Source of the DNA: Candidatus Eisenbacteria bacterium
GTDB taxonomy: Bacteria; Eisenbacteria; RBG-16-71-46; CAIMUX01; VGJL01
Assembly (NCBI GenBank): GCA_016867495.1
Contig: VGJL01000006.1
Location: forward strand, 1-56,117
DNA: 56,117 bases
Reading direction: 5' to 3'
The notes beneath the pieces were generated by a model, which made no database searches, was not told the DNA's origin, and saw only the letters and a list, made by a program, of their open reading frames with translations. Shown here in pieces: positions 46,600-56,079 of this stretch. Position 1 is the stretch's first letter, and every line of letters starts with the position of its first letter. The position numbers were made by a program, and so were the translations under genes.

Positions 46600-48633
46600 C
46601 TAGAATCCGGCCACTTCTCGGATCGCCTCGAGGATCCGCTCCTGGTTGGGAAGCACGGCCGCCTCGAGCGTCGGGGCGAAGGGACAGAAGCTGTCCCTTG
46701 CGGCGACCCGCTTCACCGGTCCATCGAGGCTCGCGAAGCAGGCGTCGGCGATGAACGCCGCGATCTCGCCTCCGAATCCTCCGGTGAGGATCGCCTCGTG
46801 CGCGATGATCGCCCGTCCCGTCTTCGTGACGCTCTCGCTAATCGTCTCGCGATCGTACGGGATGATGCATCGCAGGTCGATCACCTCGACCGATACTCCT
46901 TCCTTCTCAGCCTCCCCCGAGGCCTGGATGCTCCGTTGCACGGCGCTTCCCCATGCGATTACGGTCACGTCCGTGCCTGGGCGGGCGACGCGCGCCTTCC
47001 CGAACGGGATCAGGTGATCGGGCCCGGGCTCCGGAGACTTCGAGTAGACCTGACGGTAGAGCCCCTTGTGCTCGAGGAAGAGGACGGGATCATCGGCCCT
47101 GCAGGCGCTCTTGATGAGCCCCTTGGCGTCGGCCGCGTTGGACGGATAGAGGACGCGCCAACCGGGGGAGTGGGCATAGAGGGCCTCGACGCACTGGCTG
47201 TGGAATGGACCCCCTCGGATGTAGCCCCCCACCGGGACCCTGACGACAAGCGGACAGGTCCACGCGCCCTGGCTGCGCCAGCGGAGGGTGGGGATCTCGT
47301 TTCGCATCTGCATGAAGGCGGGGAAGGAGTAGTCGCCGAACTGGATCTCGACGACCGGCTTCCATCCCCCGATCGCCATTCCCTGCGCGACGCCCACGAT
47401 GCTCGCCTCCGCCAGGGGGGAGTTCTCGACCCGGCCCGGAAAGGCGGTTCCCAGACCGCGGGTCACGCCGAAAACGCCGCCCTTCGGATCGGCGACGTCC
47501 TCGCCCCATATGAGGATCCTCGGATTGCGCTCCATCTCCTCCCTGAGCCCGTGATTGATCGCGTCGATCATCGTCACCGGCTCGGGCGAGAGAGGCGCCT
47601 GCTCGGGTTCGTCCACGACCGGTAGGAGGTCGCTGACGATGTGTGACATCAGATTGGTGGGATCGGGGTAGGGATAGGCGTCGGCTTCCTCGGCGGCGGC
47701 GTCGACCTCGGCCTTCGTCTTCTCCCGCAGTTCGCTGATCCGCTCGCCGGTCAGGATCCCCCGGCGCACGAGCGCTGCCTCCGTGTGGCTGAGGGGATCG
47801 CGCCGCGCCGCTTCTGCAAGCTCCTCCTCGGTCCGGTACTTCTTGTGGTCGTCCGAGGAAGAGTGGGCATCCAGGCGCACGACATGGGCCTCGACGAGAA
47901 GGGGGCCTGCGCCCGCGCGGATCGCGTCGAGAGGCGGCTTCATGGCGGAGTACAGGTGGGTGAACCGCGTCCCGTCGACATCGATTGCGCGAATGTTGAA
48001 CGAGCGGCTGATCTCGTGGATGTGCACGCCCGTCTGGGTCTCCTGCGAGACGCTGATCGCGAGACCGTTGTTCTGGATCACGAAGAGGACCGGGAGCTGC
48101 TCGCGGCTCGCCCAGTTCAGGGATTCGAAGAACTCCCCCTGGCTGGTCGTTCCCTCACCGGAGGAGACATAGACGATCTCGTCCCGCCCATCCGCCTTCA
48201 CGGCCCGGGCCATGCCCACGGCGGCGAGATACTGAGTGCCGGTGCAGGCGGTCGGGGAGACCACCCGGAGCGCCTTGGAGGAGAAATGCTCGCTCATGTT
48301 GCGGCCATTGCCGCACGGATCCCCCTCGCGCGAGAGCATGTGGAGGAAGATATCTCTGAGGGGCATCCCCAGGCCGACCATGAGGGCCTTTTCGCGGTAG
48401 TAGGGGAAGAACCAGTCCTTGCCGGGTCGCAGGGCCATCGCGACGGCGATCTGGAGCTTCTCGTGCCCGCGGCTCGAGGAGTGGAAGGAGCACTTGTTGG
48501 CGCGCACGAAGACCTTCATCCGCTCCTCGATGAAGTAGACGCGCAGCATCTTCTCGTAGAGCGCGAGGAGGGTCTCCGAGTCTATCGCGACTCCGGTGAC
48601 GATCGACGCGGCTCCTGGGTGTTGTGTTGCCAT
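46600..48633 (-). CDS. fused E1 alpha-beta subunit of a branched-chain 2-oxoacid (or pyruvate) dehydrogenase
   Basis: A single protein of 677 residues joining the two E1 chains. Residues ~20-340 are E1 alpha: RGHEKLQIAVAMAL, HFSSKALRVVSPTACTGTQ, and the TPP motif GEGTTSQGEFFES to IQNNGLAIS. Residues ~355-677 are E1 beta: MIDAINHGLREEMERNPRILIWGEDVADPKGGVFGVTRGL, ENSPLAEASIVGVAQGMA and VIDLRCIIPYD. E1 decarboxylates a 2-oxoacid and passes the acyl group to lipoyl-E2. Sequence style (SSDDHKKYR) favours the branched-chain enzyme. No E2 or E3 gene is in the window, so it must work with partners elsewhere. ATG 48633 follows AAGGAAG. Confidence 0.93.
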   Translation of the reverse strand: MATQHPGAASIVTGVAIDSETLLALYEKMLRVYFIEERMKVFVRANKCSFHSSSRGHEKLQIAVAMALRPGKDWFFPYYREKALMVGLGMPLRDIFLHMLSREGDPCGNGRNMSEHFSSKALRVVSPTACTGTQYLAAVGMARAVKADGRDEIVYVSSGEGTTSQGEFFESLNWASREQLPVLFVIQNNGLAISVSQETQTGVHIHEISRSFNIRAIDVDGTRFTHLYSAMKPPLDAIRAGAGPLLVEAHVVRLDAHSSSDDHKKYRTEEELAEAARRDPLSHTEAALVRRGILTGERISELREKTKAEVDAAAEEADAYPYPDPTNLMSHIVSDLLPVVDEPEQAPLSPEPVTMIDAINHGLREEMERNPRILIWGEDVADPKGGVFGVTRGLGTAFPGRVENSPLAEASIVGVAQGMAIGGWKPVVEIQFGDYSFPAFMQMRNEIPTLRWRSQGAWTCPLVVRVPVGGYIRGGPFHSQCVEALYAHSPGWRVLYPSNAADAKGLIKSACRADDPVLFLEHKGLYRQVYSKSPEPGPDHLIPFGKARVARPGTDVTVIAWGSAVQRSIQASGEAEKEGVSVEVIDLRCIIPYDRETISESVTKTGRAIIAHEAILTGGFGGEIAAFIADACFASLDGPVKRVAARDSFCPFAPTLEAAVLPNQERILEAIREVAGF

Positions 48634-48758
48634 ATCCAAGGCTTCCTTCCGTAATGGGTCAAGGATAGGCGGGGGCGGCAGGCGGGCGCAGCAGGAAAAG
48701 GAGGGATGTGGCCATAGCATCTTTATTTGCTATGGGTTATGGCTTGCTCTGCCCTGGA

Positions 48759-49077: not shown

Positions 49078-49470
49078 TCAGGGAATCCTGAAGAGCTCAT
49101 CGTACCGATCCCGGTATTCCGCAGTCAGGTCCCTTCCTGAATCATCTACGATCCTGCATGGGCATTTCCTTAGCAGTGGCAGCAGATGTCCCTCGATCTC
49201 TGAGTGGATGTCCTCCTTGCCCGGAAGAAACACCGTGATCACCTTGCTGTCCAGGGCGATCATTCCGTTCGTGTCGAACGGTGTCTTGGGATCCTCCAAC
49301 AGCTGAACGAGCCGTCGGGCCGCGGCTCCTCGGGTCGAGCAGACTACGAAGGTGGGCTTCGAACGGCCAGGGTGCAGGATCGCCAAGGGGTTCTTGGCAA
49401 GTTCCCGCTTGAGCTCGTCAATGGGGAATTCCCGATCGTCATCGATCACCAAGTGGAAGAAGGGAACCAT
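49078..49470 (-). CDS. candidate immunity protein of the RHS toxin
   Basis: A 130-residue soluble protein: MVPFFHLVIDDDREFPIDELKREL, KPTFVVCSTRGAAARRLVQLLED, VITVFLPGKEDIHSEIEGHLLPLL and CPCRIVDDSGRDLTAEYRDRYDELFRIP. It is acidic in parts and alpha/beta by look. It starts 12 bases after the RHS stop on the same strand, the usual place for the immunity gene of a polymorphic toxin. I do not recognise the family, so the role rests on position only. Confidence 0.6.
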   Translation of the reverse strand: MVPFFHLVIDDDREFPIDELKRELAKNPLAILHPGRSKPTFVVCSTRGAAARRLVQLLEDPKTPFDTNGMIALDSKVITVFLPGKEDIHSEIEGHLLPLLRKCPCRIVDDSGRDLTAEYRDRYDELFRIP

Positions 49471-49482
49471 CGATGTTCACCT

Positions 49483-52400
49483 CTATTGAAGGTCCGTGTG
49501 GACTGTCTCAGCCCAACCATTCTCGAACGCCGCGTTTTCCGCGGACCCCGTCGGGTGCGGGTTGTTCATGTCCTTGGGATACTTGGGTTGGGCATTGCCG
49601 TCATTGTCGACCTTGAACCCCTCGTTCTTGAAATCGGTGTTCGCATCATAGGGATCCCTGACCGACTTGCTCGCGTGCGGTTGTTCGCGCGGAGAACCGG
49701 CGTGACCGTCCGGTTTCACCCGCACCATCCCGCCATCCGGGTGGGTGTAGAAGTCCTGTCTCATGGGCTGACCATTCTTATCCAGGATTGGCTGGCCCGT
49801 CTTTGGATCGTTGATGTAGCCAGGTTGCTTGGTAAACCCCTTGCTCTGGAGCTCTGCATCGATCTGGTCGGGAGTCTTGCCCCGCAGGTCGAGGTCCTTG
49901 ACTGACTTGCCATACTGATGTCCGTTGGGGAGCGTCTTGCCAGCTTCGAAGTCGGCCACGGCTTGTGGCTTGCTCTTCCATACCTGTCCTGGGTTCTTCG
50001 CACTCCACTCCTGGAATTCCTTCGCGACCTTGGCTCGCTGCGCGGCTGAGAGCTTGGGTTTGGCGGTCGGAGGCGGTGCGGCGTTTTGCGCGTTCGGCCC
50101 GGACTGCCCCGCGGCCTGCGCGGCGTTGTTGGGACCCTTCTGGCCGGGACAGCCTGAGAGGCCGTCGATGTCGACCGCCGTGAGGGGATCGGTGGGATAG
50201 GCGTAGAGGTTCAGGCTTCCTGAGATCCCGACTGGATCGGACTGGATGTAGCGGGCAAGGAGAGCATCGTAGTACCGGAAGCGGTTGTAGCAAAGACCCG
50301 TCTCTTCATCGTAATAGTGCCCGGGACGGCGGAGCGGCATCTCGATCGCGCTTGCCGGATCTATGACGGCGCGTCCGTACGGCTCGATTCGGGCAGTCCA
50401 GACCGTCGTGCCGCTGTCATCCTCAACCTGGGTCGGGGTCCCAATCTGGTCGGTGAAGACGAAGTAGCGCCTGCCGCTTGTGGGATCGGCATCGACGTTC
50501 ACGTACTCGATGAACAGGAATGGGACGAGGGCGCGTTCGTCGGGGTAGACATAGACCCTGAGACTGCCGTCCGTTCTGACTTCCGCCGCGAGACGCGCGT
50601 TGTCCCAATAGAAGGTGCGTTGCTCGCCGTCGCCCCAGGCCTTGTGGATGCGACGGCCCAATGGGTCGTACTGGGCCTGCCAGGTGCTGCCGTTCCGATC
50701 GCAACGGATCAGTCGGTCAAGGGAGTCGTACTCGTACCGCGTGGGGCCGGCGGGGCCAGACCGCTCGGAGATGCCGTATCGGCTGTCGTGTAGGAAGGAC
50801 TTCCCGTTCGCCGACCCCAGCAGGTTCCCGGGCAGCACGCGGACATCGGCGAGTCCGGGCTGCCTCAGGAGATTGCCCGCGGCGTCGTACTCGAATGCGC
50901 TCTTCCTTCCGTCGGGAGGGATCTCGCCGCTAAGCCGTCCCGCAGCATCGTACAGGTAGGTCGTTGTCCTGGAGTGATCGTCCACGCGTCGGGTAAGGCG
51001 ACCCTCACCCGAGTACTCATAGGCGTGCTCTCGTGCGAGATCGGGATGCGCCGGAGAGGTCCGCAGTTTCCGAAGGCAACGGCCCCGGTCATCATAGGCA
51101 GCCAGCTCGACAGTTCCGTTAGAGAGGCTCTTCGATACCAGGCCCGTCCCCGTGGTCTGGATCCGGTGAAGCGCACCTGTGGGGTCCTTGATGATGATGG
51201 CACTGGGGCTCTCGGGATCCCTGTCGTACGTCGTGATGAAGCGTCCGAAGACTTCCGTGATCGCGAGATCGAGGCCCAGGAAGCCGTGAACGATCCCCTT
51301 GCCGTCGCGCTCGTCACGACAGATCCGGCCGTAGGCCTCGTAGTCGAACACGACTTCGAGGTCATCAGTGGCTGCACACGTGATGCGGCCCAGCCAGTCG
51401 TACTCGAAAGCCTGCCGCTCCCCAGAAGCGAGGATTCGCGCCTTGTGCGCATTCCTGGGGCCTATCTCGAAGGACACGAGCGGCCGACCCTCGCTGTCCA
51501 GCTTCTCGATCAAGCTGTCGGCATGGTCGTAGCGGTACTGCTCCATCAGGCGGCCATCGCGGCGGACCTCGATCAGGCGGTCTTTGAGATCGTAGACGAA
51601 CTGGTGGTCGGCCCCGCCAGGATCGACGACTCGAGTGACATCCCGGCGGCGCGAGTACTCAAAGTGCGTCGTATGGCCTAGGGGATCGGTCTCCTGTTCC
51701 TTGAGATTCCAGGACGAGTACTTGAAGCGACGTGTGCCGCCGTCGGCGTCGATGTGTCGGGTCAAGTTCCCGTTGGGGTCGTACTGCCATTGCCTGATGC
51801 CGCCCGTCGGGGCGACATTGTGGATGGGCCGTTGCATCGCATCGAGCCGGACTGTGGCGGGCGAAGATGGGTGAGCCCCGCCGTCTTCAGTCGGAGGGAA
51901 TCCGCCTCCATCGAGACGGGATAGTAGCCGGTCTACGTATTCGATGGGGAGGTGTCGGAGTGCCGGATCCTCCGCGATCGATTCCGGCTGCCTCTCCCCA
52001 TTCAGAAGGTTCCCGTATTCCCACTCGCGCGGTGTCTGCGGCGGGTCGTAGTAGGAGACCTCCGGTGGAGCCGGCTCAACATGGATCGGCGGCAGCAGAC
52101 GCCCGAACGGATCGAACCGACCAGTATGCGAACCCCTCTCGTCATAGATATACTTCGTCGCGCTCCCGCCAGGATCGATCTCCTCGACGATCTGCCCGAG
52201 CGGATCCATCTTGAAGACGGTACTTCCGCCATACGGATCGACAATCTCGGCTATCGTCCCCCACTTGTCGAAGCGATAGACCCAGCGCCCCCCGTCCCCC
52301 GTGGTGCGGATCGTGCACCTGTCTGCGGGCCGGTAGTCGAACCAATCCTCATAGAGGCCATCGTCTCCGACGCTGTGAACACACCGTCCTTGCGCGTCAT

Positions 52401-54063
52401 AGGCGTGGTTGAAGGAGTATCCGTTGCGATCTGTGATGCGGGTCATCCGGTTCCCGGCGTCGTACTCGTACTTGCCTTCCGCTCCGAGGGCGTCGCGCCA
52501 GATGATCAGGTTTCCGGCCACGCTGTACCAATAGGAGGCCAAGGTCAGGGCCTGACCATCATCCGGCGTCAGCATGAGAGCGACGATGTGATCGCGGTGG
52601 TCGTACTCGATACGGACGGGGCCGCCGAAACTCCCACGAAGCCCGCTCAGCCTTCCGCGCGAATCGTAGAAGAGGTCGATCCGCTCTTCCCGGGACCGCA
52701 GATGGACAAGTGGAGCGACCTCGCCGTTGAGGAAGCGGAAGCCCATGATCGGACAGCCCGTCTCCTCGATCTCATAGAGGGTAGGATCAATCTTGCGGAG
52801 GAGAAGTCCGTCGAAGACGACCTGATCTCTTCCAGCGGGAATGTGGGGGAACTCAGCGGTGTCGCCCTCCTGGTCGATGTAGGCGAACCCCTTCTCGGTT
52901 CGACGCAGCTCTCGCTGGTATTCGTGGCGGAAGCCCCGCCCAATCGGCCCCTCGTTGTGGCTCATCGCCGAGTCGTAGTGGCGCCTCCACTGGAACGGGA
53001 TTCCGCCCGGGATCTCGTAGTCGAGGAAGGTGTCGACGGTCGCCCCCGTCAGCACGTAGACGGGACAGCCGGGTTTCGCGCACGCCTTGTTGGCGGGGGC
53101 CTTGCGCGACTTGAGCATTGCCTTGAGCCTGCTGAAGATCTTGGTCTTCTTGAGGAGCCCGAGGGCCTTCCCCAGGGCCTTGAACAGCCCCTTGAAGATG
53201 CCGCCCATGAGGAAACTCAGGAGGGAGGGCATCGGCACGCCGCCGATGATCACGTTTGGAGAGGCGGAGATCGTGAAGCCGATCACTGCTCCGACGCCGG
53301 GGTCAAACGACCCGCAGTGCTTGGTGATGTCAACAAACAGACGGCCTGCGCGCGCTCCCTCGACCCACACATTCGAGGACCCGAGGAAGACCTCGTAAAG
53401 CGGAACGTAGCCGCCGCACCAGATGCCGAGCCCCATGTCCCCGCAGCGGGCGGCGGGCATCGCGTTGATCAGCGTGCGCGTCGCCCCCGATAGAAACGGG
53501 ATTGGAATGATTGGCCCTGTGCTCGGGAGTGGGATCGGCGGGGCCGGAGGGATGAAGTTGGGTGGGTGCATGTGCGCGTGCGGCAGACCGATGTCCATGT
53601 CCATGATGCGGATCGCCGGTAGTGCGGGGAAGGGGATCATCGCAATAGGCATGGAGATGATCTGTTCAAGGCTTGTGAGCAGATCGAAGGTCGCGCCGAT
53701 CTTGCCGAGGATTCCGGTCGGAGCGACATCGCCCGGATCCGGTGCTGCCATGCCGGTCAGGACCTTGAACTTCTTCCATGCGTCGCCAGCCTGAGCACGA
53801 GCGGAGGTCGCCGCAGCATCGCCGCTGACGCTGTGCCACTTGCCCATGATCCCCTCGGCGAGCCCTGGACCGAAGTCGCCGCCACCGGTCGGATCGGCGG
53901 CCCGCTGCTTCAGACCCTCCCCTGTGTGCTTCCAGACATCCGTCCAGCTCGATTGAGGGGCGTTCGGATCCTTTGCGGCCATCTGCTTGTTGGCCGAGTC
54001 CATCCCCGCCGCGTTCGCGGTGGCGGAGGTCAACACTTGGGCAATGTCAGCTGGATCCGCCAT
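49483..54063 (-). CDS. PAAR-RHS polymorphic toxin with unrecognised C-terminal tip
   Basis: A protein of 1526 residues. Residues 1-150 are a helical N-terminus. Residues ~150-310 are PAAR-like (DUF4150 type): AMPAARCGD, then FLGSSNVWVEGARAGR. Residues ~325-400 are the DUF6531 RHS entry (CPVYVLTGATVDTFLDYEIPGG). Then come some 20 YD/RHS repeats (YDxxGR type) and the core-closing RYIQSDPVGISGSLNLYAYP, ending DIDGL near residue 1303. The last ~222 residues are the variable tip: a Pro/Ala linker, then a domain with DGGMVRVKPDG, PHASKSV, YDAN and a terminal HTDLQ. Such proteins are delivered by type VI or similar systems and the tip is the toxin. No secretion genes are present here. Confidence 0.9.
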   Translation of the reverse strand: MADPADIAQVLTSATANAAGMDSANKQMAAKDPNAPQSSWTDVWKHTGEGLKQRAADPTGGGDFGPGLAEGIMGKWHSVSGDAAATSARAQAGDAWKKFKVLTGMAAPDPGDVAPTGILGKIGATFDLLTSLEQIISMPIAMIPFPALPAIRIMDMDIGLPHAHMHPPNFIPPAPPIPLPSTGPIIPIPFLSGATRTLINAMPAARCGDMGLGIWCGGYVPLYEVFLGSSNVWVEGARAGRLFVDITKHCGSFDPGVGAVIGFTISASPNVIIGGVPMPSLLSFLMGGIFKGLFKALGKALGLLKKTKIFSRLKAMLKSRKAPANKACAKPGCPVYVLTGATVDTFLDYEIPGGIPFQWRRHYDSAMSHNEGPIGRGFRHEYQRELRRTEKGFAYIDQEGDTAEFPHIPAGRDQVVFDGLLLRKIDPTLYEIEETGCPIMGFRFLNGEVAPLVHLRSREERIDLFYDSRGRLSGLRGSFGGPVRIEYDHRDHIVALMLTPDDGQALTLASYWYSVAGNLIIWRDALGAEGKYEYDAGNRMTRITDRNGYSFNHAYDAQGRCVHSVGDDGLYEDWFDYRPADRCTIRTTGDGGRWVYRFDKWGTIAEIVDPYGGSTVFKMDPLGQIVEEIDPGGSATKYIYDERGSHTGRFDPFGRLLPPIHVEPAPPEVSYYDPPQTPREWEYGNLLNGERQPESIAEDPALRHLPIEYVDRLLSRLDGGGFPPTEDGGAHPSSPATVRLDAMQRPIHNVAPTGGIRQWQYDPNGNLTRHIDADGGTRRFKYSSWNLKEQETDPLGHTTHFEYSRRRDVTRVVDPGGADHQFVYDLKDRLIEVRRDGRLMEQYRYDHADSLIEKLDSEGRPLVSFEIGPRNAHKARILASGERQAFEYDWLGRITCAATDDLEVVFDYEAYGRICRDERDGKGIVHGFLGLDLAITEVFGRFITTYDRDPESPSAIIIKDPTGALHRIQTTGTGLVSKSLSNGTVELAAYDDRGRCLRKLRTSPAHPDLAREHAYEYSGEGRLTRRVDDHSRTTTYLYDAAGRLSGEIPPDGRKSAFEYDAAGNLLRQPGLADVRVLPGNLLGSANGKSFLHDSRYGISERSGPAGPTRYEYDSLDRLIRCDRNGSTWQAQYDPLGRRIHKAWGDGEQRTFYWDNARLAAEVRTDGSLRVYVYPDERALVPFLFIEYVNVDADPTSGRRYFVFTDQIGTPTQVEDDSGTTVWTARIEPYGRAVIDPASAIEMPLRRPGHYYDEETGLCYNRFRYYDALLARYIQSDPVGISGSLNLYAYPTDPLTAVDIDGLSGCPGQKGPNNAAQAAGQSGPNAQNAAPPPTAKPKLSAAQRAKVAKEFQEWSAKNPGQVWKSKPQAVADFEAGKTLPNGHQYGKSVKDLDLRGKTPDQIDAELQSKGFTKQPGYINDPKTGQPILDKNGQPMRQDFYTHPDGGMVRVKPDGHAGSPREQPHASKSVRDPYDANTDFKNEGFKVDNDGNAQPKYPKDMNNPHPTGSAENAAFENGWAETVHTDLQ

Positions 54064-55423
54064 CGCCGCCGTCTTCCCGGAACTCGCTCAGCCCGCCGAT
54101 CTTCTGCTTCTGCCTGGTCTCCTTGTAGAAGCGCTCCAGCTTGTCGCAGATGTCGGTCAAGCCCGCCCTGCGCACATCGGCCAGGGCCGGAGCGGTGATG
54201 CCGCGATAGAGCTCGAGGGCCGCGATCCAGGCTTCCTCCGCTTCCCCGTTTCGCTTCTCGAGCGCGAGGGTCTTCGCTTTGCAGTCGAGCACATAGGCTT
54301 CGCCGGGAGGATTGTTGAGGGCCTTGTTCGTCGCCTGGGCGGCATCGAAGCTGCCAAGCGCTTCGTCGACGCGCCCCTCTCTGTGCAGGGCCACGCCGAG
54401 GTTGGTGAGCACCATCGCGAGCAAAGGCTGGCACTTCTGTTCGAGGCAGATCTTGAAGGATTGGACGTATCTATCCTGCGCTTCGGGGAACCGCCCCTGC
54501 TCCAGGTAGGTGTTGCCGAGATTGTAGAGGCAGTTGGCCTGCTCGACAGGCTTCTCCGCTTCCCCCGAGAGTCGAAGGGCCTCCAGGTGGAACCTCTCCG
54601 CTTCGTCGTAACGCTTGTCCGCGAAGGCGAAGGAGGCGGCCATCATCGTGTATTGCCTGCGCTCATCAGGGGTCAGACGGTCCCCCGCCAGGTCGCTCAG
54701 GACGCGCTCTTCGATATCCTCGGGATCCATGTAGAAGTCCTGTGCGATGCAGGCGTCCGAGGCTTGTTCGATTCCTTCGAGAAGGCGGCTCTGCTTCGCC
54801 GCGAGCAGGATGAACTTGGCCCAGTCGCTTGTCGTCTCCGCGACAAGCTGTTTCACGCCCGCCGCCAGCCGCGCCTCATCCTCGACCGACGCCGGGTCTA
54901 GCAGGAGCACCAGGGATCCGATCTGGTCGGGAAGACAGTCGGCGACCGCCGACACGTAGCCGGCCAGGCGCCTCGCCATGGCGTCGGGGTCGCTCTCCTC
55001 CGCCCGGTCTGGCGAAGGGGGAGGCGGAGCAAGATCGACGCCGCTCTGCTTCAGCTCGTCCCGCCAATCCTCGTTGCGACCGACCTGCTCATCGAGAACC
55101 TCCCTGAAGTACCGGGCCGGATCCCCGAAGGGGAGATCCACGTAGCTCATGAGGTGGGGATTCTTCTCGTCCTCCTCCAGCTTCACGAGCATCCGCCGAA
55201 GTCGGTCCTTCAGATCGGGATCGTGGCGGATCACGAGGAGCCGGAGCCCCGGAGTCTCCATGAACGACCGGATCTCGGTGAGCTTCTCCTCGAAGAACTC
55301 TCCAAGTGGCACGCGCAGGGCTTCCCTTAGGCGTTCATCGTAGTGGGAGCGACTTGCCCGGCTCTCCGGGCCGCGCCCCGGTTGACCTCGCCCGATGATA
55401 GGCGCGGTGTTGCACCGCGGCAA
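54047..55423 (-). CDS. TPR protein coupled to the RHS toxin gene
   Basis: A protein of about 458 residues. The N-terminal half (LREALRVPLGEFFEEKLTEIR, GLRLLVIRHDPDLKDRLRRML) is unrecognised. The C-terminal half carries at least four tetratricopeptide repeats (ANCLYNLGNTYLEQGRFPEAQ, LTNLGVALHREGRVDEALGSF). The 3' end overlaps the start of the RHS gene by 17 bases, so both are translated from one message. An adaptor or chaperone role for the RHS protein is inference. The start is unclear: TTG 55423 and GTG 55312 are candidates; the longer frame to 55591 is Pro/Arg-rich and unlikely. A CGCGGTG-CACCGCG hairpin lies near the TTG. Confidence 0.7.
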   Translation of the reverse strand: MPRCNTAPIIGRGQPGRGPESRASRSHYDERLREALRVPLGEFFEEKLTEIRSFMETPGLRLLVIRHDPDLKDRLRRMLVKLEEDEKNPHLMSYVDLPFGDPARYFREVLDEQVGRNEDWRDELKQSGVDLAPPPPSPDRAEESDPDAMARRLAGYVSAVADCLPDQIGSLVLLLDPASVEDEARLAAGVKQLVAETTSDWAKFILLAAKQSRLLEGIEQASDACIAQDFYMDPEDIEERVLSDLAGDRLTPDERRQYTMMAASFAFADKRYDEAERFHLEALRLSGEAEKPVEQANCLYNLGNTYLEQGRFPEAQDRYVQSFKICLEQKCQPLLAMVLTNLGVALHREGRVDEALGSFDAAQATNKALNNPPGEAYVLDCKAKTLALEKRNGEAEEAWIAALELYRGITAPALADVRRAGLTDICDKLERFYKETRQKQKIGGLSEFREDGGDGGSS

Positions 55424-55584
55424 GCGAATGAGGCAGGCCGGCGAGGGGGCCTCTTTACCCCTGGGTCGACCCGGCCAAGCGGGGCCGGGGGAGAAGCCCT
55501 GTGGGAAGACTCTCGCTCCAGGCGCGAAGGGAAGTCCGTCCCCTTCTTGACCCGGATCGTTCGGGATGGCTACGGTCCCGTGCG

Positions 55585-56079
55585 ATGGCATTCAGAAGGG
55601 GCGCGAAGACTGCGGGCCGCCGGGCGGGACTCCTCTTCCTTCCGGTGCTCGATCTTGTCCTCGTGGGCCTAGCGCTTTCCTTTTTGGCCATCCTACTCAC
55701 CGGCGGCGTGATCCTGGAGGTCGGCGGCAGGAAGGTCGATCTGGAGCATGTTCGGCCTTTTCTGGATGGGTTCTTCATCCTTGCCCTGACGCGCTATTTC
55801 CTTCGGACGGCGTCGCCCTTCCTGGGAATCGGAAGGTTTTCCCTCGCGACGCTGCCCGAGAGGCTCCTCGGGTGGCTGACGGGCATCTCTCGGGCCCTCG
55901 CCGGGCTGGACGCGCGCGCCGCCGTACGCCTCATCGGCTGGATCATCATGGGTTCGATCTGCGTGAAAATCCTGAACGCTTGGTTCTTCTACCCTACATT
56001 CCGCATGTCGCATGTGCCATTCTGGCGATTTTCCGATTCCGCCAACACCTGCGATGGCAATGAGTTCTGTCACTCGTAG
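55585..56079 (+). CDS. hypothetical membrane protein
   Basis: A 164-residue protein with three or four hydrophobic stretches: AGLLFLPVLDLVLVGLALSFLAILLTGG, FLDGFFILALTRYFL, VRLIGWIIMGSICVKILNAWFFY. A variable tail ends in SDSANTCDGNEFCHS. The start could be ATG 55585 or an upstream codon. The last 38 bases of the window carry nothing recognisable. Confidence 0.5.
   Translation: MAFRRGAKTAGRRAGLLFLPVLDLVLVGLALSFLAILLTGGVILEVGGRKVDLEHVRPFLDGFFILALTRYFLRTASPFLGIGRFSLATLPERLLGWLTGISRALAGLDARAAVRLIGWIIMGSICVKILNAWFFYPTFRMSHVPFWRFSDSANTCDGNEFCHS

Follow-up and report, generated by a model that had tools for sequence, protein, structure and literature searches.

A putative RHS toxin tip and its candidate immunity gene from Candidatus Eisenbacteria, shared with a different RHS carrier

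Undescribed RHS tips are common, and a locus in Candidatus Eisenbacteria raises the question of whether one such tip and the small gene behind it form a toxin–immunity pair, and which activity the tip might carry. An earlier note on this DNA, a stretch of 56,117 nucleotides referred to here as the window, had proposed such a pair. The proposal is supported by a relative, L005, in which the same tip ends a different RHS core and is followed by a homologous gene. On these comparisons, the tip and the 130-aa gene would form a toxin–immunity pair with a probability of roughly 80%, a figure that does not include the activity of the tip.

The RHS protein is the sole RHS detected in the window's genome. 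It contains RHS repeats (PF05593, 1e-42, profile search) and matches Rhs_assc_core (TIGR03696) at 4e-19, above the cut-off, with the match ending at residue 1302. A weak PAAR-like stretch lies at residues 191-241 of the N-terminal region (13.7 bits against a cut-off of 27). As the earlier note described, the core closes at DIDGL (residues 1298-1302) and a Pro/Ala linker leads to a tip of ~190 residues, here 192 aa counted from KPKLSAAQ, which follows the linker at residue 1335. Its three motifs, DGGMVRVKPDG, PHASKSV and a terminal HTDLQ, are all present, at residues 1443, 1462 and 1522, respectively. The RHS stop codon, TAG, is separated by 12 nt (AGGTGAACATCG) from the ATG of the small gene, in agreement with the spacing first reported. 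Upstream of the RHS gene lies a TPR-repeat protein that, we infer, may serve the RHS protein as an adaptor or chaperone and is perhaps co-expressed with it. The N-terminal half of this TPR-repeat protein matches no named family. Coordinates are collected in Table 1.

Table 1. Features of the RHS locus, in window coordinates.
Feature	Position	Strand	Description
Candidate immunity protein gene	49078-49470	-	130 aa; homologue at the equivalent place in L005 (6291-6680)
Spacer between RHS and small gene, containing AGGTG, the small gene's ribosome-binding site	49471-49482	-	12 bases
RHS polymorphic toxin gene	49483-54063	-	1526 aa; reading frame intact
Putative toxin tip	49483-50061	-	Residues 1335-1526 plus stop; ~185-192 residues
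Most conserved tip stretch, YTHPDGxMVRVKPxGHxGSPRxxPHASKSVR	49660-49752	-	Invariant in both members; modelled as strands
Linker following the core, rich in Pro/Ala/Gln	50043-50157	-	Residues 1303 to ~1341, ~40 residues; no counterpart shared by L005
DUF6531			Residues 332-405 of the RHS protein
TPR-repeat protein	54047-55591	-	Upstream of the RHS gene; its 3' end and the RHS start have 17 bases in common; start codon uncertain

L005 (JAUYJC010000467.1) is a MAG labelled 'Deltaproteobacteria' and lies outside the window's phylum, so the pair is conserved across phyla. Its genes run VgrG, PAAR, DUF4123, RHS (992 aa) and small gene, and the profile matches of the three genes directly upstream of the RHS gene (VgrG, Phage_GPD 2e-80; PAAR, 1e-14; DUF4123, 2e-31) identify the locus as a typical type VI effector island. 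The C-terminal end of the two RHS proteins is modular: in the comparison with L005/L027, identity jumps at the tip boundary from 28% in the core (window residues 758-1301) to 54% over 190 residues of the tip (window residues 1342-1525; 54-55% across alignments). The block common to both tips starts at residue 1342. Otherwise, the N-terminal region of the window protein shows only weak repeat matches to L005, whose N-terminus is unrelated and whose core and tip, unlike those of the window protein, are separated by a hydrophobic segment.

The similarity continues into the next gene, which starts 5 bases after the RHS gene in L005 and 12 in the window. The two small proteins are 32% identical over 123 residues, with no gaps (E 2e-26), and because this homologue sits at the same place in L005, the 130-aa gene reads as more than a chance ORF. 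Immunity partners usually diverge faster than their toxins, and the candidate immunity proteins have diverged further (32% identity) than the tips (54-55%). An RHS protein from the window's own phylum, L026, aligns to the window core (26% over residues 149-1303), with the alignment stopping at residue 1303. This protein, encoded in genome G011 (4726-8433 of L026, plus strand), carries a different tip and extends to the contig end. Since tip and small gene are shared behind different cores and L026 aligns only up to the core end, the pair behaves like a toxin–immunity cassette moved between RHS carriers. The tip and its immunity gene would travel jointly, with the relative's carrier residing in the VgrG-PAAR-DUF4123 locus. 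The G+C content of the tip (58%) and the small gene (57%) is lower than that of the RHS core (63%) and of the neighbouring genes (64-66%), which fits such an exchange.

The pair is rare in the collections searched. Six peptide patterns taken from the tip recover one relative, L005, among ~85,000 species genomes. The patterns are exact and eight residues long and would miss distant relatives; the tip family is therefore probably larger than the two members found. Beyond the window's genome (G000) and G047, the tip is absent from 47 genomes of the window's phylum, which do not include L005, and from 395 genomes of the relative's phylum and 148 of its class. Across those 395 genomes, tip and immunity gene each occur in one and the same genome only, where they are adjacent. 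Searches of plasmids and phages by tblastn with both tips (E up to 10) return no relative; tip matches in Cupriavidus pBB1, a Burkholderia phage, Novosphingobium and Sinorhizobium proved on detailed inspection to be chance. Plasmid searches with both small proteins give nothing notable, and viral contigs yield no relatives by tip, immunity or motif patterns. A viral frame in L034 matches the immunity profile weakly (E 0.001 in a small set) and is taken as chance. In the only other tip-bearing genome found, the pair thus stands behind an unrelated core, and neither a strong profile match to a non-toxic domain nor a tip occurring mostly without the small gene was seen; the co-occurrence rests on two loci, representing two independent members.

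The earlier note placed neither protein in a known family, and profile searches bear this out: Pfam, NCBIfam, PADLOC and PHROGs give no meaningful match to the tip or to the small protein. PHROG family 10631, which has no assigned function, weakly matches (E about 0.03) the DGGMVRVKP region of both tips (49651-49782, minus strand); it may be distantly related to them, from phages. By these searches, tip and immunity protein constitute a new family, absent from curated libraries (Pfam, NCBIfam, PADLOC), within a type of system that is already known. This type is that of RhsA from Pseudomonas protegens, Tse15 and TseI, type VI-delivered RHS proteins that likewise have an RHS/YD shell, a C-terminal core with a closing motif, an exchangeable C-terminal tip and an immunity gene directly downstream; the relative L005 adds VgrG, PAAR and DUF4123. 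The window system differs from these in that its tip and immunity protein match no curated family, its PAAR-like stretch is weak and no T6SS sheath is found in its genome. It is rather doubtful that both proteins are founding members of undescribed families and that the tip also has a fold or catalytic site unseen among known effectors. With the pair, the polymorphic toxins gain a toxin–immunity family whose support comes from co-occurrence in two phyla, and the module of ~185 residues with its conserved residues is now defined and directly testable.

Cleavage after DIDGL would free the toxin module (residues ~1335-1526) from the RHS shell, and the antibacterial tip would be delivered into competitor cells. 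The 130-aa protein would act as the cognate immunity protein, binding the tip and protecting the producer and its kin.

What the tip would do in a target cell is harder to read. An AlphaFold2 model built from the two sequences is moderately confident (pLDDT 67, pTM 0.66) and, in the numbering of the 192-residue tip, predicts a helix at 64-73 followed by five strands within 77-151, with 160-187 uncertain. The most conserved stretch is likely the putative active-site region, judging by its invariance and its predicted strands. Foldseek searches of the PDB and of viral models return no significant fold match, and the BECR RNase fold is not recognised among the matches of this moderately confident model. 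Neither the tip nor the small protein has a meaningful sequence match in the PDB; the hits to EDF1, acetyl-CoA carboxylase and Dpo4 are low-scoring and confined to side regions.

Metal-independent RNase activity, often with the BECR fold, has been predicted for many RHS tips of the alpha+beta type that conserve two histidines, or His plus Arg/Lys (Zhang et al. 2012, PMC3482391). The best guess for the window tip, although less likely than not to be right, is a metal-independent nuclease, probably an RNase. This guess is favoured because conserved His, Arg and Lys residues lie on predicted strands, because both tips (window and L005) contain no cysteine, and by analogy with RHS-tip RNases. In such an enzyme, the conserved histidines (YTHPDG, PHASK, HxD), together with Arg and Lys, on a helix-plus-beta-sheet domain would serve the nuclease activity. 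BECR-fold RNase toxins (Ntox7, Ntox35, Ntox47, Ntox50; PMC3482391) resemble the tip in being RHS-borne alpha+beta domains with a helix followed by strands and conserved His/Arg/Lys; the window tip differs in matching no Pfam family, in having no recognised BECR structure and in carrying a motif string unlike those tabulated. BECR membership is not claimed, since the fold test was negative. As an RNase, the tip would join a group that is already crowded.

There is close to an even chance that the pair exists as proposed but that its tip is not an RNase; it might instead act, for instance, as an NAD(P) glycohydrolase, as an ADP-ribosyltransferase or as a metal-dependent DNase. Neither a family nor a fold match fixes the activity, the conserved H, R, K, D and E residues would suit several chemistries, and RHS tips that target NAD(P) are on record (PMC10539506, PMC13285283). 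However, profile models for HNH, REase, deaminase and ART domains do not match the tip, CxxC deaminases and papain-like enzymes are ruled out by the lack of cysteine, and positive evidence singles out none of these alternatives. Should the activity be new, a further target in bacteria would come to light.

The delivery route bears on whether the window RHS is a working effector. Neither the T6SS sheath VipB nor a phage-type (eCIS) sheath is found in the 373 contigs of the window's genome, which is rated 100% complete. VipB is present in the genome of L005 and in 7 of 15 tested genomes of the window's phylum, including several relatives in the order. A missing sheath and a single RHS gene would also be expected if the effector were orphaned or decaying, its genome having no matching secretion system, or if the contig were misbinned. 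This is unlikely, as the reading frames are uninterrupted and lie close together, translations of nearby genes read as thiG-like and pyruvate dehydrogenase-like, the G+C content of these neighbours is close to the rest, and RHS proteins also use other routes. A gap in the 373-contig assembly is a possible cause of the missing sheath.

The small gene might alternatively encode a protein that chaperones the tip or partners it structurally, given that accessory chaperones exist for T6SS RHS effectors and that position and co-inheritance alone cannot distinguish such a partner from an immunity protein. This is improbable. The accessory proteins known for RHS effectors (Eag/DUF1795, DUF4123) pair with the N-terminal region and are usually encoded upstream, as DUF4123 is in L005, whereas the small gene follows the tip and is shared only with the tip and not with the rest of the RHS protein. 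Like immunity proteins, its product also diverges more quickly than the tip.

Structural models of the candidate immunity protein vary in confidence, with a pLDDT of 74 for the best of five and 49-60 for the remaining four. ZipA domains account for two of the three top structural matches (E 6e-3, probability 0.99, TM 0.49; and E 0.05, probability 0.90, TM 0.48). The model has the order b-a-b-b-a-b-b-a-b, which is also the strand/helix order of the ZipA FtsZ-binding domain. The immunity protein therefore resembles this domain weakly, in modelled topology and not in sequence: its score against E. coli ZipA is reached by 42 of 500 shuffles, the hhalign probability is 0.04% and Pfam gives no match. 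That the toxin acts on cell division and its antidote mimics a division protein through a ZipA-like fold is highly improbable despite the shared topology, since the sequence score lies within the shuffles, both TM values are below 0.5, fair confidence is reached by a single model of the five and the tip shows nothing pointing to FtsZ.

Adjoining the RHS locus, positions 46600-48720 (minus strand) encode a 706-aa protein that, from the translation only, looks like a fusion of the two subunits, alpha and beta, of a pyruvate dehydrogenase-type E1.
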